Shown in pieces: positions 3,020-63,607 of a DNA stretch of 64,000 nucleotides (position 1 is its first letter; each line of letters begins with the position of its first letter). Origin of the DNA: Pseudoscleropodium purum (taxonomy: Eukaryota > Streptophyta > Bryopsida > Hypnales > Brachytheciaceae); the NCBI GenBank assembly GCA_963969395.1, contig OZ017799.1:13146501-13210500 (forward strand), read 5' to 3'. Made by a program: the position numbers and the translations under genes. Below the pieces are notes generated by a model. That model ran no database searches, was not told where the DNA came from, and was given only the letters and a program-made list of their open reading frames with translations.

Positions 3020-3430
3020 TTATGAGAACACACCCTTGATTTTATTCCACGCTTTGCCGACGAAGCCGAGGCCAGGGTCTGATGTTGAAGACGAATCCTT
3101 GGCCGGAGGTTGTTTGGAGGCCTGTGGGGCATTAGGCACGAGCTCATGGGAGCCCCTCTTCACGCCATCCCAAGTGTACGACTCGTCCTCCTTGAGCTTG
3201 ATGCGCACTTCTTCGTACTCCAAGCAGTCATCGGAACTCAGCACCACGTGCTTCTCGTCTTCCGACGTCACAGCACACCAGTACTCGCGATAAGTGGCAT
3301 TTGTGTCCACTTTGATGGTAAACGCATTATTGGGCTTCAGCTCAGAACACAACGTGCGGTACACCCCACCTGTGCCTTCCTTCAAAGTGATGCTACTCCG
3401 AGTCTCATTCACCACCTTCGTCTTCTTCAT
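3020..3430 (-). CDS. Gene A1: small conserved plant protein (DUF7748-like), intact
   Basis: An intact single-exon 136-residue frame. It starts at an ATG 43 nt downstream of a TATA box, after a CT-rich leader. The N-terminal 90 residues form a compact domain (KTKVVNETRSSITLKEG near the start, then a Tyr-Arg-Glu-Tyr-Trp-Cys stretch near residues 47-52 and an SSDDC motif near 65-69), followed by a short Lys/Pro/Ser-rich tail. No signal peptide or membrane segment is visible. From memory it resembles small plant proteins filed under DUF7748; biochemical role unknown. It lies about 100 bp downstream of gene B in the same orientation. Two paralogues in the window (30.4 and 61.0 kb) are broken, which supports this as the one functional copy here. 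Confidence 0.75.
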   Translation of the reverse strand: MKKTKVVNETRSSITLKEGTGGVYRTLCSELKPNNAFTIKVDTNATYREYWCAVTSEDEKHVVLSSDDCLEYEEVRIKLKEDESYTWDGVKRGSHELVPNAPQASKQPPAKDSSSTSDPGLGFVGKAWNKIKGVFS

Positions 3431-3472
3431 GAGGGAGGGAGGGAGTGCTGCCTTCTAAGAAATGACCCGAAG

Positions 3473-3480
3473 TATATATG
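3473..3480 (-). promoter_or_regulatory. TATA box of gene A1
   Basis: On the minus strand this reads CATATATACTTCGGGTCATT and lies 43 nt before the ATG. The same arrangement (TATA, then TTCGGGTCATT, then a CTCCCTCC-rich leader) precedes gene A at 30766-30773 and 61471-61480. It is therefore conserved among all three copies although two of the downstream frames are dead. It shows that gene A is transcribed separately from gene B. Confidence 0.65.
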
Positions 3481-3530
3481 CACACTACTCTCAAAATGAC
3501 AGATTATCTGTGGAGACCTCCGTTCCAATT

Positions 3531-4962
3531 TCAGACCACCCAAGTGTCACAGAGGATGGCGAAGTAGGACATGATGAAAATGAATGTGAAAATCATGAGG
3601 GACAGAATCACCAAATATTGGTTCCACCGAAACAGATTCACCTTCGTGGCTTTACTAGAGTTGTTGGTGTCGAAGTCGAACTTAAATTGCTGAGGACCTT
3701 TCCTGCGGAGCGAGCTTGCTCGTTTTTCAACCTCCTGGAAGAAGAACATTCAAGCCGTAGACAAATACTGACGTCAGAAACAATTCATCATCTTCCAATA
3801 CTGAGCACCAAAAGTGCAAAGATCGGAGAAGTCAATCAAATCTTGAAAGAAAAAGACGCACATCTACTCCAAGTGCTACCAAATGTGCTTAGAATGTAGT
3901 ATTGCGAACCCCACTCCAAGTGCCTCCTGTTCAAGATATTTCTATGAACATCTTGCACGAGAAGTTCCCGATACTACATCTGTCCCCCAAATGTTACAGT
4001 GTCATGAACACTAAAATCAGCCAAGGATACTATTTCCCCAAAAACAAAAGCATATGGGGAGGAAGCTCAACATGCGATTTGGGTTTGCTTCTCAGTATGG
4101 ATGGTGAACTCTAACGATCAGAGAGACGAACTTTGAAAGAAAAGAAAGTACACCCACTCCAAATGAGGTTAGAATGTAGATTAAGGACAACCTACCAACC
4201 CCCAGTAAACACAAGCACTTCTAAAAAGGCTCTTCCCGATTCTACATCTGTCTCCCAAATGTTTCAAGGACATAACCATTGAAGCCACACACGATTACTA
4301 TTTCCACACAAAATAAAGGCCGTGGAGAGAAAGCGTAAACATACAATTTTGGCTTGCTTCTCCGTATGAATCGTTAATTCCAACGATTGCAGACTCTTAT
4401 ACTTATGCAGAATTCCCAAAATGGTCGCAAGGGTTGCAAACCCCGTGAGCACAATCGGGAACCAAATCTTCCCACACAAACGCTCACTATCTGTTGTCTG
4501 TGTCAGCTGTGACACGGCAGTCAACACCACTCCCTGGAAGACTGCGAACCAGCCAAAGATGTTGTAAATCTGGTTAGTGAGTTCGGCGCTGCGACCCTCC
4601 CTGCGAGAGACCCTGTTGCTCAGATCTTGCTCCTTGCGTTGCCAGTCTTTCAAGGCGAGTTTGTGAATCGGGTAGTGCAGTTTGATGGCCTGCAAGTTGG
4701 CGATCTCCCTGTACGCGTGAACTTTCTTCTCTGCATCCGTGTCGGTGTTGAACGCCAAGAGAGCTTGAGCTTGGGTGGCGAGAGTTTGGGCTTCGGCTGC
4801 AAGAGCTTGAGCTTGGGTTGCAAGAGCTTGAGCTTGGTCTGCGGTTGCTTGAGCTTGGGTTGCAAGAGCTTTAGCTTGGTCTGCTTCAGCTTGAACTTGG
4901 GCTGGCGGAGGCGGAGGCGGAGGAGGAGCTGCAACCTCTCCGGAATCGTTCTGATCGCCCAT
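3531..4962 (-). CDS. Gene B1: three-TM protein with Ala/Gln heptad repeat, two exons, intact
   Basis: Exon 1 is 4345-4962 (206 codons) and exon 2 is 3531-3734 (67 codons plus stop), giving 273 residues. The donor reads ATT|GTATGT and the acceptor TTCTTCCAG|GAGG; both are phase 0 and conserved in the two paralogues. The protein has an acidic start, an eight-Pro run, an Ala/Gln heptad repeat (about 24-70, predicted coiled coil), a charged segment with YREIANLQ and HKLALKDW (about 84-107), TM helices near 133-153 and 165-186, a basic linker spanning the splice junction, and a third TM near 246-268. I do not recognise the family; a membrane-anchored coiled-coil protein is all that can be said. 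An upstream TTG in frame at 4974 is not used; the ATG at 4962 aligns with those of the other copies. Gene A follows in the same orientation. Confidence 0.75.
3840..4400 (-). repeat. Tandem duplication of the exon 1 tail inside the intron of B1
   Basis: The segment 4126-4400, containing the last codons of exon 1 and the start of the intron, is repeated degenerately at 3840-4125. Landmarks in both: 'tacatctgtc.cccaaatgtt', 'actatttcc', 'tttgcttctc.gtatg'. The functional donor GTATGT is present in the outer unit, while the inner unit has GCATGT at the corresponding site, so the decoy is not spliceable. Copy 2 has the same arrangement (inner unit near 31290-31440); copy 3 seems to have only one unit. 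Confidence 0.6.
4762..4903 (-). repeat. 21-bp coding minisatellite (heptad repeat) in B1
   Basis: Repeats of a 21-bp unit related to GCTTGGGTTGCAAGAGCTTGA (read on the plus strand) encode the heptad Ala-Thr-Gln-Ala-Gln-Ala-Leu about six to seven times. The period matches a coiled-coil heptad exactly. The repeat number differs between paralogues (more at 32088-32320, almost none in copy 3). Confidence 0.8.
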
Positions 4963-16139: not shown

Positions 16140-19100
16140 GTACGTTTTTCAAGTTCACTATTAGTTCCCAAGAATTTTGTTCGGGCCCATAACCTTCTCT
16201 AGATACTAAATACTAAAATTTCTTCTAGTGACCAAATAATCTCGAGTCTATGACCTTGTGCACCTCCCATTCTACATCGCCCTGTGGAGTTACAATGGGT
16301 GGGGGCGGTATAGTCCTGCGTCCAACAATAGTGTTCGGTCGATATTTCTTAAGCAAAGAAACATAGAAAATGTTGTGGATGTACAGTACAATGACCTTGG
16401 TAATTGGAGACAGTAAACCACATCGAATATTTTTGATATAATTGGAAACGGCCCAAGAAATTTGGAAGTCAGTTTTTGTGAAGGGACCATTGTTGCAATG
16501 TTATCATGTCATAAGAACACCCGATCACCGACTTTGAAGGTTTGATGAAGATGCGCAGCTGCCGCAGCATGGTCCTACGTCCTCTTGGCTTGATCTCCAA
16601 CGAACTGTATCATGACTTTCACTTCCTCGTGAATTTGAAGAAGATGTTGGATTTTGTCCTCAGCAATGAGAACCACAGACGTAAATGTAGCTACGAATGA
16701 CATCGAAGGATGATAACCATAAGTGGCATAAAATGGCGATACCCTTGTTGTTGAATGAGTTGCATTATTATAAGCGAATTTTGCAACTAATAACAAGTCC
16801 ACCCAATCATCTTGTTGCCTTGTGGTGAACATGCGAAAGAATTGCTTGAAGATTTGATTAACTCGCTCCGTCTAGCCATCTGATTACGGATGAAATGCCG
16901 TAGTTGGTGTAGGTCGAATATGCAACAATTGATATAGCCTTCTCATGAATTTAGAAACGAAAACAAAGCCATGCTCAGAAATAACTTCGGAAGGTAGTCC
17001 ATGGTGTTTCCATCTATGATGAAGGTACAGATTGGTAGTACCAATCGAATCCACATTTTCATTAGTCGATATAAAATGTGCCAACTTAGTATTCTTGTCG
17101 ACCACCACAAGAATTGAATCAAACATGTTGATAGGAGGAAGTTTCACTATAAAATCGGTGGTAATTCTTTTCCAAGGTGCTTGTGCCATTGGAATGGGTT
17201 GCAATAGGCCATACAGTGCATGCCGCAAGGGCTTGGAGCATTGGCAAGTGTTGCAACCATCAACATATTGATGTATATATTTCTGCATTGTTGGCCAATA
17301 AAAACTCCTAGCCACCAAATTGAGAGTTTTTGCTTGACCCTGATGATTGGCAGATGGTGCATCATGTCTTGAGCGCAAGATCTGTCAATGGAGTTCCTCA
17401 TCATTCGGAATGAATATAGTGTTGTGAAACTAGAGAATGCCATCCTTGAAAGTGTAGCCTTGGAACTTGCATTTTATGTTTGCTAGAACCTTGTCCGCCC
17501 CATTCTCAAAATAGGCCAATACTGGCTAGAGTGTGGGGTCAGTCCTCGCAGCCACTTGTACTCAAGCTCAAATTAGGGTATCTACCTACATTGGTTTGTA
17601 TGCTTCTAGGGTAGTGAGCTTCAGTAATGGTTGGGATTCTTGTGGCGCATTATCTATCACATCAAGTTGCCTAGAAAGAGCATCTGCCTAGAAATTCATG
17701 AATCTTGGCCAATGGTGAATGGTGAAATGGAATGCAAACAATAGCTCCGACCATTGAGCTTGCTGCCGATTCAGCTACTTAGTACTCAAAAAATACTCAA
17801 GGTTTTTATGGTCGAAAATTACCATAACCTCGTGTGGCAACCCTTCCAAGTATATACGCCAATCTCAGAAGGCTAGGACAATACTTAAAAGTTCTTTGTT
17901 GTAAATGTCATAGTTTTGCTCAAGTAGAGACATTTTTGAATTGCAATATGCACAAGGGTGCAAGTGACTGTTGTCACCATGCTGAGAGAGAATTCCCCCA
18001 ATGGCACTGTTAGATGCATCTGTTTTGATAATAAATGTTTGTTAAAAATGAGGGTGTAGTAATATTGGTGATTGATAGAAAAATACCCGTAATTTATTAA
18101 ATGCATTATTAGCTTCAACAATCCATTGAAATTTTTGGTCCTTGTGTGTCAATGATGTGAGGGAAACTGCAATATGGGAATAATTCAATATAAATCAACA
18201 ATTAAAATTTGCAAAGCCCAAGAATGCTTGAACATCCTTAATATTTTGTGGTAACGGCCATTCTTTAATAGTTTGAACCTTATTTGCGTACATTTCCAAT
18301 CCTTTGGATGCAACAACCATCCCTAAGAATTCTACGGAAGTACAATGGAATTCACATTTTGAGGCTTTGACATAGAAAATTAGAAATCATGGTCTGAGGC
18401 ATTGGAGAACTTCTCTAACTATGGGCCAATGTTCTTCTTTAATTCTTGAAAAAATTAGAATATCATCCAAATAAATGACAATTGAAATATCCAATAAGTC
18501 ACCAAAAATATTTTGTATGTGTGCTTGAAATTGAGTAGAAGCATTTGTGAGGCCAAATGGCATTACCAGGTATTCAAACAAGCCATAACGTGTCTTGAAA
18601 GCGGTCTTGAATTCGTAGCCCACTTCCATTCATATGTAATGGTATGCTTACTTCACATCCAATTTGGTGAATATACGGGCCCCCACTAATTGATCCATGA
18701 GCTTAGGAATAAGTGACAAAGTATAATGATTTTGAATTGTAACTTTATTATGGTTTGGGTAATCAATGCAAACTCAAATGGAACCATCTTTTTTCCGAGT
18801 GAACATTATGGGAGCGGAAACTGGGGATTTGGATCTACGAATCCATCTTTTTCCCAAATTCTCCTCTAAGTTTTCCTGAAGCTCCTCTAATTCCATTGGA
18901 GACATGGGTCACAATCCTGAGTTCCGTGGTTCTTGGATGTCCTTAAACTCAATTTTCATAACCAATACTTTGTGTTTAGGCAACTCATTGGATGATTTCT
19001 CACTAAAAACATCATGTAAGTCTCGATATTTCGGTGGAATTGATTCCAAATCAAGATCCATGGTCCCAGTGGTGGAGTTATTGTCCACTTCCAATATTAC

Positions 19101-19322
19101 CAGGGTATATACCTTGGCCACCTTGGCAAACAGCGTAAAAGTCATGGCCGATATGATGGCGTGCTTTGGGGGGTGTAACTTTAGGTGATTGGCCCACCTG
19201 ACTTTCTTAGCTCCGTCCTCCGAGCTTACAAGCAAGCAAGTACTTCGTTGTTCTATTGTCTCGTTCTTTTGGCAAAACCTAGGTCGAGTGAGCGGGGCCT
19301 GCATACCCCGATCAACGGCCAA
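16140..19322 (-). pseudogene. Chromovirus pol remnant (RT, RNase H, integrase, chromodomain)
   Basis: In order on the minus strand: the RT entry (PPKYRDLHDVFSEK near 19020) and RT palm ([15 protein letters not shown] and the catalytic YLDD near 18460-18580). A frame-broken RNase H region follows at 17885-18121. Then come integrase with its zinc finger (CNTCQCSKPL, near 17255) and core (TTDFIVKLPP, near 17150), the integrase C-terminal part at 16575-16832, and a chromodomain relic at 16180-16270 (EGYGPEQNSWE). Stops and frameshifts separate the pieces. The encoded enzymes would copy the RNA to DNA and insert it; none can be produced intact here. Confidence 0.85.
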
Positions 19323-19969
19323 GACCTCTGGATTCTCTGTCTTCCCTCATAGACAAGTTGCCTTGCAATATGGCGACTTGAAGGTAACTTCTTTTTGTGC
19401 CCAATGAATTATTGTGTTGTGTTGCACTAGCTAGAGAGTTCCCATGATACAAGGGTATTGATTGATGTTTGTTAGATCCGCTAGACCGCTACTAATATTT
19501 CTTGATGCTTGGCCATGTTGAACTCAACGGTAGCTTCATGTGTGATTAACCCTAAAGTAATAACCCTTCCGTCAATTATCCTCACCTCTTGAGGAAACTC
19601 CTTTCACTGTACAACAACTCAGTATTTATCAACAAAATTTGGATGCATGAAAATCCTTGTGGCTTCCAAATCCACCAGAGGCTAAACCTTCAACGAATTG
19701 ATTTGACTGTCTACGGTTAAGTAGGCTCTAGGGTCTACTGTGGCTCATAGTTACAACGGTCTCGTCATTCTTCTTGTTTGGATACAATATAGGTTTCCTC
19801 CTATGGAAGCACTCAGCTACTTGGTTGTAATCAGATTGGCCGTAGTCCTTGCCTTACCTAGATACTGGGAGCATCCCTTCAGTCCTAGGATTGATCTTTT
19901 CCCAACCCCTCCTTGTGCATTTTGATTGACTCCAGCGCTGCCACGAATAAAGGTGTGGAGGGGTTGGTT

Positions 19970-28945: not shown

Positions 28946-29940
28946 TGTGATTGTTTTGAATGGAAATGTTTGGCAAAGAAACTAGAATGCAACTGATTTG
29001 TGACTAAATTTTGTGGGTTCAGGGTTCTGGGTTTTGGTTCCAGGCAGCTTATTGTGCGAGGAAGGTTCCCGGGGAAACGCAATGCTGTTACAGATATTCA
29101 GGGGAGTCGCAGTACGTTTGTGCGATCTCGTCTTTTCCAATCCTGATCAATGGGCAAGTAGATCTCCTCATTGCCTTCCAGCAAGTGCTTTCAATAAATT
29201 GATTGAAACCTAATTCCTTGAGCATCGGAGACAAGGAAGTTTTGCCTGAACACTGTATTTGAGCTCGTCTGTAATCTTTCACTTTCGTATCAAAAATGGA
29301 GATGAAATGCCGGGGATTGGGATGCGAGTAGATATCAATGACTGCATTGAAATCCATTTTAACTCTCCCAGTTCAAACTAATGCAGAAGTACAGAATTGT
29401 TGCATGCAATTAAATATTTTCGACGAGCGAGCTTGTCTGTGCAAAACTACCTCGTATCGATCATTGAGCATTGGCAGAGCTCCAAGACTTCGTCTGCAAC
29501 GTGCACCCGCGGTGATCGAGGAATGCGGGTCCCGAATTTTGTTCGCTTAGCCGGCACGGAGTCTTGGATAAACAGACTCCTGGTTCATACATCATCTTTC
29601 GATTACCAACAATGTCCACCCTAAGACCACTGAAACTCCTCTTGCGTATCGTATCATTGATTCATGGAGAGCATTCATTATTCTTTCCACTGGGTTAGTA
29701 AAAGAATTCCCTTGAAGCTGCTTGAAGGTCACGTACATGCAGGGCGTGAGTCGGCGTTAGACATGTTCTCACTTGGTGTCAAGAATAGCGTCAATGAGTG
29801 TTTTTAGAAGTGAATTCAGGTTTGACTACGGACTAGATTCACACCACCCCTAACAAGAAGTGTGCATCAAAGTTAAGCCCTAACCCAACCACATCAAAAG
29901 GTCTACCGAGCGAGGAAGTCATGCATGTACACTACCTTAT

Positions 29941-30135
29941 CGCATAATGCAGCCCATTGGTATGACAGAGAATGCAAGTCTAAGAAAGTCGCGGAACAGA
30001 AGAGAGCTTAGCATACTGAAGCTCCATGCCCAATTCAATTTCAAAGTAAGGAGTGGATCGCCACTCCATTGTTGCAACACGAACACAGTGACTGTGAGTC
30101 CGAAGACATTGACATCCATTTCAACAGCTAGCTAG
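29941..30135. repeat. Cassette 3'-flank block (three copies)
   Basis: Nearly identical to 54424-54595 and similar to 2632-2825. Shared strings include 'gaatgcaagt.taagaaagtc', 'gaacagaagagagct' and 'gtggatcgccactccatt'. The 54.4-kb copy is closer to this one than to the first, which indicates the duplication order. Confidence 0.8.
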
Positions 30136-30379
30136 AGAATACGATTTTCAAACAGTCACTCACCTCACTCACAGGAAACGTCAGCCCTTAGTTATAACGT
30201 ATCAGGACAGAATAAAGCTGCTCGACCTTTGACTACAACCCTGCCACTTCTATTGCCCCATATATTTTATACAAACATGGCAGCTCGATCTGTGCGTTAA
30301 TTTCTATCCCATAGCTAGTTCGCTTCACATGAACACCATCCCTTGAATTTATTCCACAATTTGACGACGACGGCCCCCC

Positions 30380-30725
30380 TCCGAGTCACCATGCCTCCCC
30401 TTACCTCCGGGACCTGGCTTGATGTCGCTTGGAGGCCTCTTTGTCTCCGGCGTCGATCACGAGCTCATGCGAGCACATCTTCACGGCATTCCAAGTGTAC
30501 GTCTCGTCTTCCTTAGCTTGATGCGCGCATACTCCATGCAGTCGTCGGAGCTCCGCACCACGTGCTTGTCGTCGTCCGGCGTCACAGCACACCAGTACTC
30601 GCGGTACGTGGGATTTTTATGGTATACTCCTTCCCAGTCTGCAAGTTGGGGCACAACATGCGGTACACACCTGCCGTGCCTTCCTTCACAATGATGTCGC
30701 TCTCCGTCGGGTTCACCACCTTCGT
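30380..30725 (-). pseudogene. Gene A2, inactivated copy
   Basis: Homologous to gene A1 along its length (KTKVVN start, VKEGTAGVYRMLC, then YWCAV and SSDDCMEY in other frames). The initiator is lost: the position of the ATG now reads TACCC. A deletion near 30622 shifts the frame before the YWC motif and another near 30515 shifts it again; the C-terminal tail ends early. The TATA box and CT-rich leader upstream are still present at 30766 and 30727-30750. Confidence 0.8.
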
Positions 30726-30796
30726 CTTGGGTAGGAGGGAGGGAGGGAATGAAAATGACCCGAAGAATATATGCTCACTACTCTGAAATTGATTGA

Positions 30797-32376
30797 TTAT
30801 CTGTGGAGACCTTTGTCCCACTTTCGGTAAACCCAAGTGTCACAGAGGATGACAAAGTAGGACAAGATGCAAATGCCTGTGAAAATCACGAAGAACGCAA
30901 TCACCAAAAACCATTTCTTCGCCAACTTGGGATTTGTGGCAAGCCTACAGTTGTCGGCGTGAATGTTGAACTTGAATTCTTGGGGACCTTTCAGGCGTAG
31001 ACTTTGCGCTCGTTGGGCAACCTCCTGAAGGAAGAACATTCAAACGATAGTTAGATACCCATGTTAGGGACAATTCAACATTTTAAAATACTCATGACCA
31101 AAATATATCGTCTTGTAAAGATGGGAGAAGGGAATCAACTCTCGAAAGAACAGGAAGCGCTATCAAATGTGCTTAGAATGTAGAATCGGGAACCCCACTC
31201 CAATATACTAATTAGGTCCCCACATAGTGCCTCCTGTTCAAGATATCTCTATAGAAGACATCTTGTAGCGGAAGTTCCTGATTCTACATTTGTCCTCCAA
31301 ATGTTACAAGGACATGAAAACTAAAATCAGACAAGGATACTATTTCCCCAAAACAAAAGCATATAGAGACAAAGCTCATCATATGATTTTGGTTTGCTTT
31401 TTAGTATAAATGGTAAACACTGACAATTTGGGAGGCAAATCTTGAAAGAAAAAAAAAATGTACTTACACCAAATGTGGTTAGAATGTAGATTCGACACCT
31501 CTAAATTGGATCATGTACAAGATATCTCTAGTAGTGATATCTTTCCAATTCTACATCTATCCCCCAAGTGTTAGAAAGACATAACCACTAAAACCACACA
31601 TGATTACGATTTCTACACAAAAAGAAGCCTATGGTGAGAAAGCGTAAACATACGATTCCGGATTGCTTCTCCTTATGAATCGTTGTCTCCAATGAGTGCA
31701 GACTCATGAACTTATCCACAATCCCCACAAGCGTCGCTATTGTCGCAAACCCCGTGAGCACGATCGGAAACCAAATCTTCCCACACACCGGCATTGCTCC
31801 AAACTCTGGGTGTGCCGTCTGCTTCAACTGCGACACAGCAGACAACACCACTCCTTGGAAGACCGCAAAGACTCCGAAGATGCTATAAATCTGGTTGGTG
31901 AGGTCATTGCTTTGACCCTCCCTGCGAGAGACGCTACTACGCAGAAACTCCTCCCTGCGTTCCCAATCTTCTAAGGCGAGTTTGTGAAACGGATAGCGCA
32001 AGTTGATGTCCTGCAAGATGGCAATCTCCTTGTATGCGTGAACGCTCCTCTCCAAATCATCCTCAACATATTTGGAAGCCACTAGAGCTTGGTCTGCGAG
32101 GACTTGAGCTTGGGCAGCGAGATCATGAGCTTGGGTTGCAGGAGGCTGAACTTGGGCTGCGAGGACTTGAGCTTGGGCTGCTAAAGCATTAGCTTGGGTT
32201 GCGAGAGCCTGACCTTGGGTTGCGGGAGACTGAACTTGGGCTGTGAGGACGTGAGCTTGGACTGCCAAAGCATGAGCTTGGGTTGCGAGAGATTGGGCTG
32301 CGAGAGCATGATATTGGGTTGCGGGAGGGGAAGCTACGATTTCAGTAACGGCAGGCTCATCATGTCGGTCGTCCAT
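30797..32376 (-). CDS. Gene B2: three-TM heptad-repeat protein, two exons, intact
   Basis: Exon 1 is 31654-32376 (241 codons) and exon 2 is 30797-31024 (75 codons plus stop), giving 316 residues. Donor ATC|GTATGT and acceptor CTTCAG|GAGG, both phase 0 as in B1. Compared with B1 it lacks the eight-Pro run, has a longer Ala/Gln repeat and a longer C-terminus. The three TM segments, the HKLALEDWERRE segment and the SRREGQSNDLTNQIYSIFG motif are kept. The start ATG aligns with those of B1 (4962) and B3 (63607). No stop or frameshift is seen, so it may be active even though its neighbour A2 is dead. Confidence 0.75.
32088..32320 (-). repeat. 21-bp coding minisatellite in B2
   Basis: About ten 21-bp units related to AGCTTGGGCTGCGAGGACTTG encode Ala/Gln-rich heptads (for example ALATQAHALAVQAH). 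Longer than in B1 (about 6-7 units) and B3 (one or two). Confidence 0.8.
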
Positions 32377-52254: not shown

Positions 52255-52530
52255 ATATAATAGAAGCACCCATCTCCAACCAAGGATCCATTCTCAACTT
52301 GTAGGGTGCACTATTTCCAACCAACACTAGAACAAATTTTCAACCAAAGCTTCGAATGTGTTTTTTCTCCTTTTCAAAGTTGGGACTAGTCAAGTCATAA
52401 TACATGTCCCAAAGTAGTGAGTGGGAAATAGTTCTGGAATGATCGGAATTAGAAGACTCTACATATTAGTTATGAGTTTGGACTAGTTGTTGGCTTCCAA
52501 AATTCATAGTAATTTCGATTCAAAGCATAA
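52255..52530. repeat. Third copy of the 39-kb dispersed repeat
   Basis: Shares 'tgtagggtgca.ctatttccaacca', 'ttttctccttttcaaagttgg' and 'gactagttgttggcttccaaaattca' (each broken by differences) with 39250-39460. From 52531 to 53126 nothing else is assignable. Confidence 0.55.
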
Positions 52531-53126
52531 AATTTTCCAAAAACTTGCAAGCTTCATATTTTCTGTCTTTTGACGCAGTAGAAAATTTACAATGCCTTAT
52601 CGTGCTCCAAAACCTATGTAAAATCGCTAAAGTGGTTGACTATGGGTGCTTCTACTATAATAAGAGGCAATCCATTCCTAATTGATGCCCCATTTTGGCA
52701 ATGTACATAGGTTGTTTTCTTCCGCTGCAAAAGAGATGAATGGTGATTAATTATGGTGTGTTTCTGAGCAGTTGTGGTGCATTGTAATTGGTTACAAGAC
52801 TCTCAATATTGCAACCTCCCGTTGGTGGATTTTGCAACTAATCCTTGGTTGGAATGAAGAAGGTCTATATCAGCAAAATGGGAGAAAGTCCATCTTCCAC
52901 TTACAAATTTATAGTAATTTTGTGTTGCGGAAAAAAATTTGGAAAATTAGACAACCTTTTGTTGCGTATTTTTACACATTCAAAAATTTACCTTGTGAAG
53001 AAATTCGCCTTGCAGATATTAGAAATTGCTTAAGATGTTAGGAATGGATCGGCTCTCTTATTAGCCTTTTGAGCAAAAATATCCAATAAGTTAGATGCTT
53101 GCTATGTGGGGTAAGCTTACATGTAA

Positions 53127-54049: not shown

Positions 54050-54416
54050 TTAATAAAATAAGGTTAAGCTTATCATAAATGGAAATACATGGTTGGTTTC
54101 CCTTGCAGATTATTTTACCATAAGGTTGAGGCACCAATTATCAACTATACCCAGTGCCCAACTTGTATGGTACACTATTTCCAACCTTAAGTTAGAATTT
54201 AACCTAAGAAAAATCAACCAAAAAAAATGATTTTGGATGGGCGCATAATGAATCTGACCCCAATGTATGGTATTTCATTTATATCGTGTAGTTTTTGTAG
54301 TAATTTCTTGAAAGAAACACAAAGACAACGATTGTGAGTCTGAAGATATTGACAACCATTTCAACAACTTCGGAGTACTCCGGAGGCACTCACACCTCAC
54401 AATTGATCACTATGTA

Positions 54417-54685
54417 ATCGCAGAATACAGCCCATTGGTATGGCAGAGAATGCAAGTCTAAGAAAGTCGCGGAACAGAAGAGAGCTTAGCATACTGAAGC
54501 TCCATGCCCAATTCAATTTCAAAGTAAGGAGTGGATCGCCACTCCATTGTTGCAACACGAACACAGCGACTCTGAGTCCGAAGACATTGACACCTTAATT
54601 CGCTTCTTATGCTTCTTATGGAAAACAACTGTGGAATTTTTTCAACGCTTTGCCACCGACGCCTGGTGCTGATGCTGGTGCTGAT
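54417..54685 (-). repeat. 3' flank and 3' end of cassette 3
   Basis: 54424-54595 is almost identical to 29947-30120, and 54600-54685 corresponds to the 3' end of gene A (copy 1 positions 3020-3080). The continuation is at 60989, beyond the 6.3-kb inserted block. Confidence 0.75.
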
Positions 54686-54746
54686 GACAGGAAGATTTCG
54701 TGGTGTTTGCTGGGGCTAATCCTTTGAGGGTTAGCCCCCACTTTAG
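54686..54746 (+). repeat. Left TIR of the Pack-type element
   Basis: GACAGGAAGATTTCG at the edge, a small internal hairpin GGGGCTAAtcctttgagggTTAGCCCC, then CACTTTAG. Pairs with 60933-60988. Confidence 0.7.
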
Positions 54747-54751
54747 CTCCT

Positions 54752-54772
54752 TCTTACAAGGCGTGTGAAGAA
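54752..54772 (+). repeat. Junction motif copy 1
   Basis: CTTACAAGGCGTGTGAAGAA; the same core TACAAGGCGTGTGAA occurs at 56357 and 57955. It lies between the left TIR and the VPS35-bearing segment. Confidence 0.6.
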
Positions 54773-55466
54773 AAACAGATTTTCTTTGTTAATAGGACTT
54801 TAAGAACAAAATTTATGTGTCACTACTTCTCATTCACTCCTACCTACTGCCTAGTTGACGATAGCTACAACTACTTGTACTCCACCTTCTCACCTCCTTA
54901 AGGTGATGGACTTGGCAATTCCAACATTTTCAGTCATTACATTACATGAAAAAATTTATAATCATAGAGAAAAAAATGACAAAAAGAAATATGGCGCCTC
55001 AAAGTCATAGAAGCAAACAATGAAGGTGCCTCCATGAACATCAGAATGGTCGTTAAGAATTACGGGTCGTCCTTGTGCTTGAATGGATCATGTGCCTCTT
55101 TCAATAGTGTGGTTCGTGACATTTCATCCACCTTTAGAAGCCAGATTTTGTTCATAACAAGATATAGTTAATTTCTTCAAGTCTCGAGCTTTATTATTCT
55201 TGATCCTATCTATGGTCCTAATTCAAAACAGATCACTCTCAACTTTCAAAAGCATAAGTAAGGCTACAAGCATTCAGAAAATTTCATTCAAAGAGCGTTA
55301 CTACTCACCGTTTGCTTTCGTCTATCCCTGAAATTCACACAACAATATTTGTTCCACCCCAGACATCCTTAAAGGAGTGGATTCTGCACTCCTTACCTTG
55401 CAACGCATTTACTCCAGCAATTGGATGTCTCCTCAACGTAAATATATGCATGATTTAGATACTAAC

Positions 55467-56210
55467 CTGATGCTGCATTTGCACCCACAACTTGTTCATC
55501 TCTGTAAAGTTCTGTAGCACGGACTCACCCTCCCTGTAAAACAACGGCGGTTGCATTAAAGGATTGCGCTCATACACAAGCAATAAGCTGAGACATTGAT
55601 ACGAATATGCTTAACTCTTAAACGTTACATCCATAACCTCGAGCTATCTGGACGTAGTAATCTTTAAGTGTATTTTTCAAGAAGTCTAACGTTGAAGGGT
55701 TAAAAACTAGAATTGGAAATTGATGAAAGAGTGGTGCAGACTAGGGGTAAAGGTATTAGTGACAGTGCTCTGGTACCCTTCAAATGGAGAACCCGCGCCC
55801 GGCAGTTTGTCACAACTGATTTCAGTAAGTTACATAGAAACAGCCCCCGAATTGGATGTTGAACACCTCGAACCATTTCCACTAAGTCTCCCAACACATA
55901 CTTTGCTGGCGCCTCATTGACATTATGTAGACGGAGCCCACTGTACAGAGAAGATACTTACAATAGACCATTCATTAACCCAAGTGAACATCTCGTGCTA
56001 AAAATTTGCACTTTCAACTATACCTTTCTTCACCGACGCATAAGCTTCAATACTAAAAGCTGCAAAAGAGATCAAGATGGACTTACAAATGAGGCAGTAT
56101 GTTGCCAGTATGCTGAACGAGCTATTATAAATCGACAGGTGTGCGTCCTCGTTTCATCTCATCTTGGAAGAAAATCTCCAATCGCTGGAGCTCCCCAAAC
56201 AATCTCATAT
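55467..56210 (-). pseudogene. VPS35 (retromer) pseudogene fragment with introns
   Basis: Three exon-like pieces on the minus strand. 56087-56210 reads MRLFGELQRLEIFFQDEMKR, then LVQHTGNILPH, and has TAA TAG in place of Tyr-Glu. 55755-55956 reads YLLCTVGSVYI, then APAKYVLGDLVEMVRGVQHP and IRGLFL, with one frameshift between and another before KLPGAG. 55467-55533 reads ESVLQNFTEMNKLWVQMQHQ. Splice sites GTAAGT, CAG|G and GTTAGT are recognisable. VPS35 is the scaffold of the retromer that retrieves sorting receptors from endosomes; this covers only part of its N-terminal third. A further weak piece may lie near 55210. Retained introns show that genomic DNA, not cDNA, was captured. Confidence 0.8.
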
Positions 56211-56356
56211 CTAGAAATTTGTAGTCAAGGATTTCACCTAGTGCATCTAAATAAGCCACAACTATAGATTGAACCTCCCAACAATTAGTGCGAATTCAGT
56301 AGAAGTGGATACAAAGCTCGTAATACTTCTGTGGTGACAACACGGACGTCCGTAGC

Positions 56357-56379
56357 TACAAGGCATGTGAAAAATCACC
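56357..56379 (+). repeat. Junction motif copy 2
   Basis: CTACAAGGCATGTGAAAAATCAC: 21 of the bases agree with copy 3 at 57955. It lies exactly between syntaxin exon 3 and the VPS35 fragment. Confidence 0.65.
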
Positions 56380-57613
56380 TGCAAGTTTTGAAACTTCTTC
56401 CTAATCTCTGCCATCCAAATTTTCATGTCATTGACCTGCCGAAACATATCACTCCCGACGATTAATCATGAGGGTATACTTCAAATTCGAAGTCAGTGAC
56501 AGACTGAGGAATGAAATGCTTAATGACTTATTCGAGAGAAGAGCAAGGCAATGGTTAAACCCTAAAGTACAGAGATTTCATGGTTCGAAAATGAAAAATC
56601 TGCATGACCGCATTGTGAAAAAAATAATGCAGACAGGCTAAATTATCAATCACCAGAATCAATGAAGAATGATGCATGAGTACTTAGCATTCTTGAGGAC
56701 CTGCCTCAAAAGTCTTGCAATAATAATTCAAATTCTGCATACGCACAATCTAGAGCTCATCTCAAGTGGGAGTTACCAAGGAGAAAGGAGGTGAGCACTA
56801 TGCATGATTTCTACAGAAAATGTCTAATTTCTTCTTAAGTCTTTTTCTGGCTGCGATCAGTTCTCACAACTGCATAAAAATTGTCTGCCACTAAACTAAA
56901 TAGAATTGAACATAAGAAAGTCTCCATTTGAGTTACTCAGAAGTGGCAAAAACAAAAACATGACGCCAGATTTGGGCATTTGTGGCGCTCAGGGGTTAAC
57001 CTCCTGGAAGAACAGGGTCATGTGTAGGCCTGCATCCGGGCTATCAGATGGCCCCGTCTCGAGGTCCACCTGTTTGCCATTAACACCGGGCCTATCTGCT
57101 TCAGAAGAAGAATCGTTGGAATCCTACGCATTCGAAATCAAATAATTCAGCATCTAAAACCAACCACGTGATATTCCGCTTAATTTCCCTTCTACACAAT
57201 ACAAAACTCACGGTGCCTTCAGTAGGAAGTGACATCGTCACCACATTAGAGATTCATTTGCACTGCATTTAATACAGCTTGAAAACCTCAGTCTTAACCC
57301 CTAAGAAATAGAGATTCCACTGCATGAAAGTCACTATTCCGATTGACCATATTATGAAAAATACGATTCCAACAGGGCTAAATTTCGTGTCACCAAAATC
57401 AATGAACAACATTGCAATTGTTGATCGAAAGAAAAAAGAAAATCAAAAGAAAGAAAGTCTCCATATAAACAACCCAAAAGTTCCAAAATAAAAAAATGTA
57501 GGTTCATTTCCTTCATCACACAATGCTTTATAACTCAATGCAGCACTCGTGATTAAGCCTAATCACCACATTTTTCACATTCTGCAACAAGATACCTCGA
57601 AGAGATCATTCAT
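56379..57613 (-). pseudogene. SYP1-type syntaxin fragment II (exons 1-3)
   Basis: 57596-57613 encodes MNDLFE, the standard start of plant SYP1 syntaxins, with donor GAG|GTATCT. 57001-57123 encodes 41 residues ending VDLETGPSDSPDAG...LFFQE (the conserved Asp-rich, then FF region), with donor GAG|GTTAAC. 56379-56435 encodes VNDMKIWMAEIRKKFQNLQ, the start of the Habc helix. All three are in phase 0 and uninterrupted. After exon 3 the sequence leaves the syntaxin at the junction motif and VPS35 begins. A syntaxin needs Habc, SNARE and membrane anchor, all missing here, so this is a dead N-terminal fragment even though its exons are open. Confidence 0.8.
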
Positions 57614-57952
57614 GGTGAAAAATCGATGACTAACTCCTCAATCGATCAAATGGGTTCCCAATTATCACAAACTCATGATCCAAAAACCTCCATAACTTCT
57701 ACTGCCATGGCCATGATATGCTCCACTCTCATTCTCATTTTCGGCGCTTGTTGACGATGTGCTTCAACCGTTCTCGATCGGGACCATTGATGTTTTCCGG
57801 CTTCAATTCTGATTCTGTGCTGAAGAATTTGTAGCGAACAACGCCATCTTAGAGGTTTGGAATCGAATTCTGCAATGCTGCACTACAGAAACGTACAAAC
57901 AGCAGAAGAACTAAAAGAATTAAACGCTTGTCCTGCAGCATTAGCCTTGTGA

Positions 57953-57978
57953 GATTACAAGGCGTGTGAAAAATCACA
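57953..57978 (+). repeat. Junction motif copy 3
   Basis: GATTACAAGGCGTGTGAAAA followed by ATCAC. It lies between the 3' end of syntaxin fragment I and the leader of fragment II. Confidence 0.65.
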
Positions 57979-57991
57979 GCAAGTCACTAAC

Positions 57992-59050
57992 CTCTGATTC
58001 GATTTTGTGAACAAGCTCGCCTTCAGCTTCCACAATGATTCCCATGTCAAGAAAAATCTCAGTCATGAGAATTTCATGTTAGCCCAATGTTTGGGTCACA
58101 CCTTCGCACGAAATAAAAGTCATCCAACCAATGTGTGCATTGTAAGGAATTGGACATTTTCTTGAACGTGAGTACTTGCGTGACATTTGAAACAGAAAAT
58201 AAAATACCTGATGATATTCCAGAAGCTTCTTTTCGAAATCCTTGACTGCAGCATGCCGCTTTTGAATTTCAGCTACTGTGTCCTCTGCCTGCACCACAAT
58301 GTCAAAGAAGTAAGGTAAAACCTCCGAGCTTGAGCTGGTTTTGCAACCTACTAGAAGCTAAAAAACCAAGCACAAACAACATAAAGAATTGAGGCAATAG
58401 AACGTCTACCTAAACCGTTCAAGTTGAAAAAAACGGTTTGAAATTTGCTCAAAGGATCTTTAACAAACATAGTATACCACTCTTTGCGCCAGAACGACAT
58501 TTTTGAAAATCTTCTCATTCTCCTGTTTCAATCAGGCGTTCAATCACCTGTGAACCACAGAAATAAATTAAACAGAGGCAAAACTACAACCCAAGCAGTC
58601 AAAACTAGGAAATTCTCAAAGTCCTCATTATAAGCCTACCAAAATTTGGCATACGATCTCGTTGAGAAGGTGTACATTTTAGGTAAAAGTCTCTCAGGGT
58701 TGTTTTGGAAACAGGGTCCCAAATACGAGAGGTCACCTTTCATTGAAAGATCATACAGAGAGGTGAAAAAGAATGCAGTACTCAGCCCTGAACAGAAACT
58801 GACACTTGATGGAATTGGAAAATTGCACACGCAAGTGGGCTCGGATTCATCAACTTCCTGCCTGGTAAATGCACACGTATCAATCGGAACATGGAAGTCA
58901 GCTTCACAAAATTTCCACAATCTTTCCTCACAGCAGAATAGCGGGACTCATATGCACATCAAATTAGGTTTAGAAAAAACGTGTTTCACTTACCTCCCGA
59001 AATCCGTCTTAATATCTTTGGACAAGTTCCTGCAGTTCAACTTTTTCTAA
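57992..59050 (-). pseudogene. SYP1-type syntaxin fragment I (later exons)
   Basis: Minus-strand exon pieces in gene order. 58994-59050: ELQELVQRY, stop, DGFRE with donor GTAAGT (end of Habc). 58478-58547: VIERLIETGE, TGA stop, EDFQK. 58208-58288: AEDTVAEIQKRHAAVKDFEK and KLLEYHQ (start of the SNARE motif). 57992-58057: IFLDMGIIVEAEGELVHKIE. Intron borders fit GT-AG. These exons normally follow those of fragment II, yet here they lie upstream of them. The second SNARE half and the membrane anchor are missing. The in-frame stops show loss of function. Confidence 0.8.
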
Positions 59051-60299
59051 TGAAGAGCATGGCGGAACACACAGCTACATATCCAAAGACTTCCACGGCA
59101 CCAAGAAGACGATTTACTTCACGTAATCATTGCAGCGGAAACTCGGAGATGGAGTCCCAATATTAATGAAATATTGCGCCAATTCTGTAATTACCGAAAT
59201 CTTAACAGCGGACCTCAAAATCAAGCACGAACTCCCTCAGCCTCATCTTCAAGTTTCTGAGACGCGTCGTACATAGTCGCAATGAAAATAATTAATACCT
59301 CCCTTTCTCATCTGAAGCATCAAATCTCGGTCATGATCATTCCTCGGAATCCGGTGGATCAATATCAAGTGTGAATTGTTGTGAATCACAAGAAGCCACA
59401 GCAGTGCAAAATCCCCAGGTTTGAAAAAAACGACCAGATTTATTCATGGACAGGAGTACCTAATTCCATTACATGAAGCACGTCATTTTGGCTTGCAACT
59501 AAGTGAGTAATCTGGTCTCTGCTTACCGTCACCTCAAAAGAACGTAAACCTAAACGAATAATCTTACAAGTTGAAATCGAAGGTACGAGGACCGCCAGGG
59601 CCTACAGAAGTCATACCATACAGAAGTCATACCATTCATGGCTGTAGCTTCTGTCACCAAGAAGATAATGATTCACTGGTCTCTAATTCGTCATTAATAT
59701 AAAAAAATCATGAACACTTAACATCCCCTTCCTTGGCACATTTCTTTCTAACAATCGCCAAGCTACTTATCCACTCCAACATTGTCACTTGCTAACACTC
59801 TACTGCCAAAGCAAATGGACATAGGATGTGCTTGCTAAGGCACCACCCTTGAGCAAGACATCACAAAGATTAAAAGCTACAGGAGACAAAGAACTTTGGT
59901 GACCCAGTGCTACTAAAGCCCTAATTACCACAACATGAAGCTGCAAACCCAAGAACAGGTAAGTGCTGTCATCAAGGAAACGAACACAACATTACACAGA
60001 ATTCCGAATAGGAATGCAGTATATTTAAGTCTACAACTTCGACTGCTAAAACTTCGACTACTAAGACTTCGACTACTAAGACTAGTCATTTAGCATACTT
60101 ATAATCAACGGCTAAAGATTTGACCTACTCCTACATCGCCATAAACCTAGTCCACAACCGCCCCTCAACACATACGGTGTAAATTAGGGTTTAAATTAAT
60201 TTTATAATTGAATCATTTGAATTTCTTTTGGCACGCATCGAACCTTATTTCAAAGGCTAACAAAAAGTGAGACAAAACAGCAGCACCGGTGAAACAAAG

Positions 60300-60880
60300 A
60301 CGCACACATTGATTGTCACTGAACGCCCTCCACAGAAGCTCGATTAGTACGAGAAAGCACACTCCAGTTCTGCATCCGATACTCTATTGCCACTGCTCTG
60401 GTGACCAACACGATTTAAGATGTCCATCAATCTCCGGATCAGTATGAATCACAGGAGTACCAACGACCTCGCTTCCTGCTCAATTTCGAAATCCAAAGAG
60501 ACATAAATTTTAGGGTTTCTCTCTAAAAAAACCACCCAAATTTAGCGAGACGTGCAAATAGACAAACCGATATGACAGTGTGAAGAGTTTTCAAAGCTCC
60601 AACCAACGAATTTATCACACCACGCAATCAACACAAGCTGAAATTGTAAGAAACGAAACTCACCAATTGTGCGGAAAGAAAGAGAGAGATTTTAAGCTCT
60701 GATCGACAAATGTGAATCCCGCAAGAGAGTGGCATTCCTCCACACTCAGAAAAAATGATGATCATACCATGGATTTTTGTGCTCAGGGAAGCAGGAACCG
60801 CAGACTGCAGGTTTGGTGATGAGCTAGCAATGAAAGACCAAAACCCTAACTTTAAACCACTGTTTCATAGAAGGTGGAAA
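60300..60880 (-). promoter_or_regulatory. Promoter/leader-like region with a 5' UTR intron
   Basis: On the minus strand a CT-rich leader (AAAATCTCTCTCTTTCTTTC, near 60670-60700) is followed by ATTG|GTGAGTTTCG and, 170 nt on, TTGAGCAG|GAAGCG, a typical plant leader intron. An ATG at about 60433 opens a 27-codon frame with no recognised family. It is probably the captured 5' region of the syntaxin, VPS35 or a third gene. From 59051 to 60300 no exon could be identified. Confidence 0.4.
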
Positions 60881-60932
60881 CATGCGATTCATTGGATCAC
60901 ACAAAGCTCTAGTCCCGGCTAAACCCTGAAGT

Positions 60933-60988
60933 CTAAAGTGGGGCACTTCGGTCCCCCACGCAAATTAATGTCGCCAAATCTTCCTGTC
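60933..60988 (-). repeat. Right TIR of the Pack-type element
   Basis: Read inward on the minus strand: GACAGGAAGATTTGGCGAC, then TTTGCGTGGGGG and GTGCCCCACTTTAG. Pairs with 54686-54746. Confidence 0.7.
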
Positions 60989-61364
60989 GACGACCCTTGG
61001 GCCTGAAGTTGCTTGGAGGCCTATCCGTTTTCGGCACCGTTCGCGACGTCACGCAGGCGCCGCGTCACGACATCCCAAAGCGAGCGCCGACTTACGCCAG
61101 ACCAAGTGTACGTCCCGTCTCCCCTACGCCTGATGTGGAATTTCCGGTACTGCATACAATCGTTGTAGCTCAGCACAACGACTGCGTTGTCGGTATACAG
61201 ATTAGTGGTACAGAAGTACTCGGTGGACGTGGCATTTGAGTCCACTTTGAAGGTTTCGCTTTCTCGGGCCGGAGGTCGGTACACACCACAGTTAACACAC
61301 CCAATGTGCTTTCCTTCAAAATGATGCTCCTCCCCGTCTCGTTAATCACCGTCGTCTTCGGCAT
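60989..61364 (-). pseudogene. Gene A3, broken copy
   Basis: The ATG at 61364 is kept and the first 28 residues (PKTTVINETGRSIILKES) match A1. A frameshift near 61270-61285 moves the rest (FKVDSNATSTEYFCTTN, YNDCMQYRKF, TYTWSGVSRRS) to another frame, and the 3' end is separated by the 6.3-kb insertion at 60988. TATA (61471-61480) and the CT-rich leader remain. Confidence 0.8.
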
Positions 61365-61493
61365 GAGGGAGGGAGACGAGGAGGGAGAGAAGGAGCGAGT
61401 GCATATATTGTATATGCATGAGGAAGGAAGAAAGGGGAGGGAGTGCTGCCTTCGGAGAATGACCCGAACTGTATATATATGTACTCGCTACTC

Positions 61494-63607
61494 TCAATGG
61501 AGACCTCCGTCCCACTTCTGGACCACCCAAGTGTCACAGAGGATGTTGAAGTAGGAAAGGATGAACATGCAAGTGAAAATCACAAGGGTCAGAATCACCA
61601 GAGACTGATTCATCCTAAACGGCTTGGGCTTCGTCGCTCGGCGAGAGTTGTTGGTGTGAATGTGGAACTTGAATTTCTTGGGACCTTCGCTGCGTAGACA
61701 GCGTGCTCGTTGGGCAACCTCCTGAAGGAAGAACATTCAAGTCATAATTGGATATCCAAGTCAAGGACAACTTTAACATCTTCAAATCCTCAAAACCAAA
61801 TGTATTCTGAGGATGACTGAAATTTATCGTCTTGTAGAGATGGAAGAAGCGAATCCAATCTTGAAAGAATAGGAAGTGCACCTGCTTCAAGTGTTACCAA
61901 TTGTAGCTAGAATGCAAAATCAAGAACCTGCTCTAATGTACTACTCAGGCACCCAAAAATGTCTCCTGTTCAAGATATCTCACAAAAAGACATCTTGGAG
62001 CGGAAGTTCTCAATTCTACATTTTGTCCCCCTAATGTTACAAATACATGAACATTAACCCCTCACTACCCAAGGGGACCAAAAGTGTCCTCATAGAGTTT
62101 CAAATCAAATTCAAAGTGTTGTAACTTTTGCATTTGATGTTTGAATTCAATGAAACTTGTTGGAAAATTTGTGCTCTCTCTTCTAGTTTGTGTGTTAAGA
62201 TTTATAGATCGATCTAAGATGAACTAATTAATTTGAAGCCAATCAAACTTCACAGGTTCAATTTGAGTTCACCAAATTGCATTTGATGGCTAAAACTTTG
62301 GAGGGTTGTATCTCTTTCATCCAATGTTTGTTTTCAATAAATTTGTTGGGTTTTGTTCCCTTTGAAGTTTAGTTATTGTAGTAAGATTTTCATATAAATC
62401 CAAGTTGCTTGGAATGTTTGGGAGCAATTCGAAATTCAAAATCTAGACATTTTGGGATTACTGTGAACTTCGGCGACTTGTTTCTTTGTCATGAAGTGTT
62501 TTTTTACAATAATTTTTTTTGGAAAAGTTGCACATACTAGTCTAGTTTGTGTGGCTAAAATTTCATATCAATACAAGAAGTTATAAGGGACTAAGAAGCA
62601 TTTTAGTAAAAGGAGGTTCAACCTTAGATGTGTTTTCTGCAATTTTTCTTGCTAATTATTTGCAAGCCATTTCGCAAACACATTGAGTCAATTTATTGAT
62701 ATTTTTTTTCTTCAATGTGTTTGCATGTTGGTTTTGAATTACTTTGTCGTTTCAAGTTTTTTCATTTGAGTAAATTTAGAAATCGAATTTCACTTCTAAG
62801 TGTGTTGTTAGGAAAATTTCAACATCTTTTTTTAACACTAAAACATTATAATCTTTCAATCTATACAGTCAAATGACTTCAAATTTGATTCACATCATCT
62901 ACAACATGTTCACTACGAGATTGTAAGGTTAAGATCTTTATAACTTAGTGACATTTACATCTATATCACTTCAAAAGCACTAATGTTTTAGAACCCAAAC
63001 CAGTCTTGCGTGGTGAGGGGTTAAAACTAGGCAAGGATGCTATTTCCACACAAAAAGAAGCCCATAGAGAGGAAGCGTAAACATACGATTTTGGCTTGCC
63101 TCTCCTTACGAATCGTAAGCTCCAACGACTCCAGACTCTTAAGCTTGAGCAGAATTCCCACAATCGTCACCACCGCCGAAAACACTGTGAGTACGATCGG
63201 GAACCAGATCCTCCCACACAACGTAACTCTGTGTTTGCCGTGTGTGTCAACTGCGACACAGCCATCAACACTACTCCCTGATAGACCGCGAACCAACCAA
63301 AGATGTTGTAAATCTGGTTGGTGAGTTTGATGCTGCGACCTTCCCTATGAGAGACGCTGTTGCTCAGATACTCGTCCCTGCGCTCCCAATCTTCTAAGGC
63401 AAGTTTGTGAAACGGGTAGTGCAGGTTCATGTCTTGCAAGTTGGTGATCTCCTTGCATGCGAAAACACTCCTCTCCACTTGGTCCACGTCGTTTCTGTAG
63501 GCCACGAGAGCTTGAGCTCGTGGTGCGAGAGGCTGAAGAGGAGCTGCAAAACGACCATGAACGATTTCAGGAACGACACGCTTACGCTTACCCTTCTGCT
63601 CACCCAT
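61494..63607 (-). pseudogene. Gene B3, frameshifted copy
   Basis: Exon 1 is 63087-63607 and exon 2 is 61494-61721. Donor GTATGT and acceptor CAG|GAGG are preserved. A one-base loss near 63220 shifts the frame between TM1 and TM2, so exon 1 has a length not divisible by three. The Ala/Gln repeat is reduced to about two heptads and the start is Lys/Arg-rich (MGEQKGKRKRV). Exon 2 is open (75 residues, TM3 intact). The intron carries a 963-bp TTAA insertion. Confidence 0.8.
62058..63020. mobile_element. TTAA-flanked element E5 (963 bp) in the B3 intron
   Basis: TTAA at 62054-62057 and 63021-63024. Ends CCCCTCACTACCCAAG and, inverted, CCCCTCACCACGCAAG. Comparison with cassettes 1 and 2 ('gaacactaaaatcag') gives the empty site, where one TTA-type site stands. 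The interior ('gttcaatttgagttcacc', 'gggttttgttccctttgaag') differs from E1-E4, so it is a second family with similar ends. No transposase. Confidence 0.8.

Follow-up and report, generated by a model that had tools for sequence, protein, structure and literature searches.

The stretch of the Pseudoscleropodium purum genome analysed here (the window: 64 kb, contig C43:13146501-13210500, to whose positions plain coordinates refer) contains a 6303-bp element which is very likely a non-autonomous DNA transposon of the CACTA/EnSpm type. At least two events would have brought in genomic pieces of the SYP1 syntaxin gene and of VPS35, after which the element multiplied in composite form; the window copy lies in the last codons of a copy of a gene coding for a DUF7748 protein. 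Pack-TYPE transposons are recognised by captured host coding DNA between terminal inverted repeats (TIRs), combined with the lack of a transposase, and by the presence of the composite in more than one copy. Both features are found here, and the element is best read as a Pack-CACTA-like element, rather than as a Pack-MULE (Mutator-like element, MULE). The genome searched for parent genes, relatives and further copies comprises 313 Mb in 52 contigs. The limits and terminal features of the element are as follows.

54686-60988, no strand assigned: entire element (6303 bp), located close to the 3' end of the DUF7748 gene copy; delimited by its ends, the empty site and relatives with the same ends
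54686-54698, plus strand: left TIR GACAGGAAGATTT, starting CACAGG... or TACAGG... in other copies
60976-60988, minus strand: right TIR, 13 bp, a perfect pair with the left repeat
54736-54746, minus strand: left copy of the inner block CTAAAGTGGGG, from a motif search of the window
60933-60943, plus strand: right copy of the inner block CTAAAGTGGGG, from the same search
54712-54738, no strand assigned: predicted left subterminal hairpin GGGGCTAA...TTAGCCCC, from a fold of the element end
60938-60959, no strand assigned: predicted right subterminal hairpin, from a fold of the element end

The inverted ends given in a preliminary description of this DNA hold to the base, as perfect repeats of 13 bp, and the second shared block which it placed about 50 bp inside them is present as CTAAAGTGGGG, exact at both ends. 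Similarity to the flanking gene stops at the two repeats. The sequence GACAGGAAGATTT occurs exactly only twice in the window, at the two element ends, while the other three of the five matches listed have two mismatches; with up to two mismatches allowed the count is not above chance, as 13 of 100 shuffles reached at least five matches. In a control for the end repeat, an inverted 10-mer was common to 11 of 20,000 random 24-nt pairs drawn from the window. The two copies of CTAAAGTGGGG are its only matches in the whole window at up to one mismatch (at least two such matches in 11 of 100 shuffles). The fold of the left end has a z of -2.5 on the plus strand (5 of 200 shuffles equally good) and -2.1 on the minus strand (8 of 200), and the right hairpin is not better than its shuffles, with 48 of 200 (minus strand) and 74 of 200 (plus strand) equally good.

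The same ends recur at other sites in the genome. The left 515 bp have at least 22 matching stretches and the right 489 bp at least 12, both including the window itself; these counts are lower bounds, and several stretches may fall in one copy. Of the 21 left matches besides the window, six extend into the left terminal block (query positions 2-117 or 5-117). The limits of four complete relatives could be set (11.8 kb on C48, 12.2 kb on C47, 17.3 kb on C1 and 2.3 kb on C47); their left ends read CACAGGAAGATTTCGTGGCGTT, with the first C replaced by T in one. Inside the 17.3-kb C1 relative, L012:2180-2566 encodes a GHMP-kinase-like piece (Pfam E 2e-6), possibly another captured gene. A protein-kinase open reading frame (ORF) at L022:4939-5376, near the 12.2-kb C47 copy, was rejected as a capture because it lies outside that element, the right end of which is at L022:4567. 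On C48 the right end of one member is found about 130 bp before the left end of another (L009:821-995), and on C45 two right ends of close relatives face each other about 1.7 kb apart, like an inverted duplication (L038:9322-9342 and L039:1099-1119).

The element splits a gene copy of which both sides can be read.

54616-54685 (approximate limit), minus strand: last codons of the host DUF7748 gene, left of the insertion, from the joined-flank reading
60989-61375, minus strand: host DUF7748 copy, right of the insertion, with a frame change inside the domain

When the flanks are joined they match another DUF7748 copy of the window across the junction (3015-3123; 72.7% over 110 columns) and read in frame as ASKQLQ...CFP-stop, so that the earlier claim of flanks rejoining a gene copy stands. 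The joined reading has 33 codons, as does the DUF7748 copy at 3020-3454, which implies that the insertion left the length unaltered or, at most, duplicated 3 bp (GAT/GAC), a codon difference in the variable tail making up for it. The gene was assigned to DUF7748 by Pfam (E 8e-28), and its only organism-named relative among those listed is from Ceratodon (52%). The host copy may already have been a pseudogene before the insertion, given the frame change inside its domain. It belongs to a two-part locus, coding for a DUF7748 protein and a protein with alanine/glutamine repeats, which is present in three diverged copies (2057-4910, 29362-32228 and 54404-63531), the third being the one split by the element. 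Elsewhere in the window, ORFs at 16884-17384 and 18909-19346 (minus strand) resemble, by eye, pieces of a retrotransposon integrase and polyprotein.

The interior of the element holds decayed, intron-containing pieces of two genes, all on the minus strand.

55076-56357 (left edge approximate), minus strand: captured VPS35 genomic piece, codons ~64-200, introns kept
56377-57069, minus strand: captured SYP1 piece N, codons 1-42, intron kept; 56995-57069 by protein match
57981-59061, minus strand: captured SYP1 piece C, codons ~124-233, intron kept, with a stop and a frame change
56555-56958, no strand assigned: intron region of SYP1-N, of which 57294-57495 is a second, diverged copy
57294-57495, no strand assigned: that second copy, 68% identical over 123 columns and 70% over 61

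Protein matches and exon edges bear out the SYP1 and VPS35 exons, introns included, that had been proposed for the interior. The joined interior peptides matched VPS35 (E 2e-21) and syntaxin (E 1e-8) chains in the PDB, and one single interior ORF matched the Pfam family Vps35 (E 6e-12). The VPS35 piece is represented by five tblastn stretches of 27.2 to 66.6 bits, all on the minus strand, with two in-frame stops and at least two frame changes. Four SYP1 stretches have an E-value of 0.002 or better (30.6 to 42.9 bits), namely codons 1-25 (E at most 6e-5), 182-211 (E at most 1e-6) and ~18-42 and ~209-233 (E 0.001-0.002). Taken singly, the matches at codons 124-146 (E 1.0) and 157-173 (E 3.6) are weak; they are collinear with the others and fall inside DNA blocks that align with the parent gene. 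Shuffling the element 100 times gave top scores of 22.1 and 22.4 bits for two SYP1 queries and 28.0 bits for VPS35, so the 27.2-bit VPS35 stretch is not above chance on its own. Canonical intron boundaries are present at several, not all, of the 18 exon edges (for instance cag|GTC...CAG|gtgatt, TTGTAAG|TATCTT and CATCAG|gttagt); others depart from the canonical form, among them those at which SYP1 codons 146 and 173 end and the one that opens the VPS35 piece, as decay or breakage would lead one to expect. The SYP1 order is permuted, codons ~124-233 being placed before codons 1-42, and the start codon position of piece N reads GTG. With their stops, frame changes and lost start codon, the gene pieces would be nonfunctional. 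No transposase family was found above the cut-off in 17 chosen element ORF peptides searched against Pfam, where the SYP1 SNARE ORF drew a name at chance level, HTH_Tnp_Tc3_1 (E 0.09; 13.1 bits, cut-off 21.1); ten of the 17, including eight from parts without an assigned gene, gave nothing below E 0.1. The right-hand 2 kb without a known gene (59061-60900) are partly common to copies on C45, C42, C46 and C1.

The parental loci lie on different contigs and are thus not adjacent, contrary to what a simple duplication of neighbouring genes would predict. The VPS35 parent on C41 (loci L019 and L041) matches the VPS35 query from codon 1 to 805 in exon-like stretches, and the stops in this alignment, judged by eye, fall where alignments run into introns; for VPS35 the closest organism-named relative among those listed is from Ceratodon purpureus (76% over 90% of the query). 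Window 55087-56357 is 86.4% identical to L019 1661-2944 over 1298 columns, introns included. The multi-exon SYP1 parent on C40 comprises seven stretches (C40:40791402-40794692; 60-93% identical to the SYP1 query), two of which are listed with one stop codon each, with locus L046 upstream. Besides those on C40, the 23 SYP1 matches in the genome search include 15 elsewhere at 25-59% and one in the window itself. For SYP1 too, the closest organism-named relative listed is from C. purpureus (57% over 41%), with two other proteins scoring slightly higher. SYP1-N (56377-56558) is 95% identical to L046 over the 182 bp compared, and SYP1-C matches L045 at 77%, 62% and 66% in three collinear blocks, its homology ending at 57981. 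The donor of SYP1-C may have been a lost or older copy of the C40 gene. Kimura two-parameter distances (K2P), computed on four chosen blocks, between the window copy and the parents are 0.53 for SYP1-C, 0.10 and 0.17 for two parts of VPS35 and 0.05 for SYP1-N; they are relative ages only, since genes under constraint change less. If both SYP1 pieces derive from the C40 gene, their unequal distances require two capture times.

A second copy of the composite is located at C1:18508246-18533496, where ten blocks match the window. Eight of these, 77-92% identical, follow the window order from 54801 to 60966, except that window block 59691-60172 comes after 59969-60062; in the remaining two (67% and 71%) the inner repeat is matched a second time. 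As this stretch is 25 kb long, it must hold large insertions. The C1 copy differs from the window copy by K2P values of 0.075 to 0.104, and from the parents by 0.62 for SYP1-C, 0.14 and 0.20 for VPS35 and 0.075 for SYP1-N. It has the same VPS35/motif/SYP1 junction in other flanks, which argues that the composite formed before the copies separated. Parts of the composite also occur on C46 (L013). The window flanks adjoining the element (54198-54685 and 60989-62051) have no match in the genome loci compared, and the flank matches of the C1 copy do not adjoin the element. Further out, window 52293-52534, 54121-54197 and 62052-63024 match L013 (357-2972) beside its partial composite copy; the match of 62052-63024 runs in opposite sense and flanks the composite part on its other side, which suggests a dispersed repeat.

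The junctions between the captured pieces are marked by copies of a short motif that also occurs just inside the left end.

54754-54778, plus strand: motif A, left subterminal TTACAAGGCGTGTGAA..., 68 bp inside the left end, with a similar motif at the same distance in L009-L012
56358-56376, plus strand: motif B, 19 bp separating the VPS35 piece from the SYP1 piece, absent from both parent genes
57955-57984, plus strand: motif C, a third copy, at the edge of the SYP1-C piece

Against a 30-letter reference motif taken from C, motif A agrees at 23 positions and motif B at 22, compared with a maximum of 20 in 200 mononucleotide shuffles of the element (plus strand) and likewise 20 at any further site of the window. 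L009-L012 and L014 each have a site scoring 22 equally far inside their left ends, and the parent loci L019, L045 and L046 contain no site scoring 20 or more. The VPS35 homology ends at 56357 and that of SYP1 starts at 56377; in a 20-bp comparison, motif B has 19 positions in common with C and 16 each with A and with the L009 left end. Its absence from both genes and its likeness to the element's left end point to DNA derived from the element at a putative capture junction. The motifs are almost evenly spaced (1602 and 1599 bp), which might suggest a tandem unit; the spacing is probably due to chance, as only the motifs stand out at those offsets. A palindrome beside motif B was also set aside; it belongs to the VPS35 piece, the gene having the same letters but one end letter.

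Two routes to these junctions were weighed for the same element. Captures may occur next to the left-end motif, with 19-30 bp of it staying at the inner junctions. It is tentatively suggested, with the balance of probability against it, that the family captures genes by template switching at the ~20-bp motif during gap repair, each host piece being pasted at the motif and one motif copy being left per capture. The motif copies would then be a readable record of past captures, and the junctions of other copies would show host DNA, motif and host DNA in succession. A simple order of pasting at the left end agrees with SYP1-C as the oldest piece, but VPS35 (K2P 0.10-0.17) looks older than SYP1-N (0.05), and about 300 bp separate motif A from the VPS35 piece. 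The other route, in which neighbouring elements fuse and their inner ends are lost, as modelled in section 9 of PMC8903248, is a serious possibility that stops short of being probable. Inner left ends may have left motifs B and C as remnants, and close neighbours such as the pair on C48 do exist in the family; however, the inner junctions keep only 19-30 bp of motif, and the element contains no inner TIR copy with fewer than two mismatches.

The assignment of the element to the CACTA/EnSpm type is based on its relatives; a tnp2-type transposase such as theirs would have moved it. An 865-aa frame in the 12.2-kb C47 copy (L022:871-3465) and a 445-aa frame in the C48 copy match the Pfam family Transposase_21 (E 7.6e-6, 25.7 bits and E 2.6e-5, 24.0 bits), and exact 3-bp target-site duplications (TSDs) flank two of the five complete copies, on C48 (TAG/TAG) and C1 (TTC/TTC). 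Several observations weigh against this assignment. Both Transposase_21 scores are below the curated cut-off of 28.6 bits, and the tnp2-type transposase expected of autonomous relatives is represented by these two frames. Up to E 1, the 865-aa frame matches nothing in the PDB, and a 324-aa frame of the C1 relative nothing in Pfam; the window element is without a detected transposase. CACTA/EnSpm termini begin CACTA, with CAC as the core, while the ends here start CACAG (three of the five complete copies), TACAG (one) or GACAG (the window). Two of the five copies lack a TSD (C47 12.2 kb, AGG/TAG; C47 2.3 kb, TTG/CTC), and the window copy has no exact one, GAT and GAC agreeing in two of three letters; joining its flanks with no TSD removed gives the equal codon counts of 33 and 33, which the lack of a TSD fits slightly better.

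The preliminary description had proposed a Pack-MULE or related element, of which the TIR-bounded mobile element with pieces of two host genes stands and the MULE family does not. Intron-containing host gene fragments between TIRs would suit a Pack-MULE. MULE TSDs are 8-10 bp long. A range of 4 to 10 bp is given for the IS256/MuDR group in PMC10045372. The flanks here, in which three of nine letters agree, carry no MULE-type TSD, and the exact 3-bp TSDs in two of the four relatives, together with their sub-threshold tnp2-like frames, make a Pack-MULE very unlikely. A Helitron2/Helentron-type rolling-circle element could account for predicted hairpins at both ends, short inverted repeats and a window copy without an exact TSD, yet it is more improbable still. 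The ends of Helitron2 are described as asymmetric, with the 3' repeat ~20-30 bp inside and upstream of the hairpin (PMC3627910), whereas both repeats here are terminal and outside the hairpins; the 3-bp TSDs of the relatives argue against it as well, and no Rep or helicase family was found among the ten relative-copy frames scanned. Segmental duplication or processed pseudogenes instead of a transposon, which the homology of the pieces to genes elsewhere and the flank matches beside the composite part in L013 might recall, can practically be set aside in view of the parents on different contigs, the kept introns, the inverted ends, the empty site and the flanks discussed above.

How DNA transposons pick up host gene pieces is an unsettled question, and a review (PMC13317346) allows in its treatment of the mechanism for an alternative, yet undiscovered one. 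In this case one moss genome contains the parents, relatives that have a transposase frame and a sister copy in which the junction recurs, and the inner motif copies offer a way to test a specific model of capture. No special meaning attaches to the two gene names themselves. Although the element had been singled out for combining two functionally related trafficking genes, that relation is best read as chance, since selection cannot be shown from only two parents, and stops and frame changes interrupt the pieces. Gene shuffling of this sort is already known from flowering plants, and the host here is a moss rather than an angiosperm. Among the titles listed by literature searches naming mosses, bryophytes or Physcomitrella, none was on gene-capturing CACTA elements in mosses, which is no proof that none is in print, and the strings 'Physcomitr' and 'bryophyt' are absent from the main text of PMC8903248.

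The moss element shares captured gene fragments with the CACTA elements of Chenopodium, for whose superfamily a 3-bp target site is given (PMC8978399); there, however, the fragments described lie in the 5' region of elements with coding sequence, unlike the moss element with no detected transposase. It likewise resembles the Pack-CACTA and Pack-TYPE elements of Arabidopsis, rice and maize, which are non-autonomous TIR elements with captured coding DNA and stepwise acquisition (PMC8903248), but in contrast to the fusion of neighbouring insertions described in section 9 of that source, the host pieces at the moss junction are linked by 19 bp similar to the subterminal motif of the element itself. 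A close counterpart is Tgm-Express1 of soybean, a 5.7-kb CACTA element with five host gene fragments (PMC1947982): both belong to the CACTA superfamily, if the moss element is correctly placed, are of similar size, contain several unrelated host gene fragments with exons and introns and are inserted in a gene. Tgm-Express1 sits within an intron and contributes its fragments to spliced transcripts, whereas the moss element lies in the tail of an already frame-changed gene copy.

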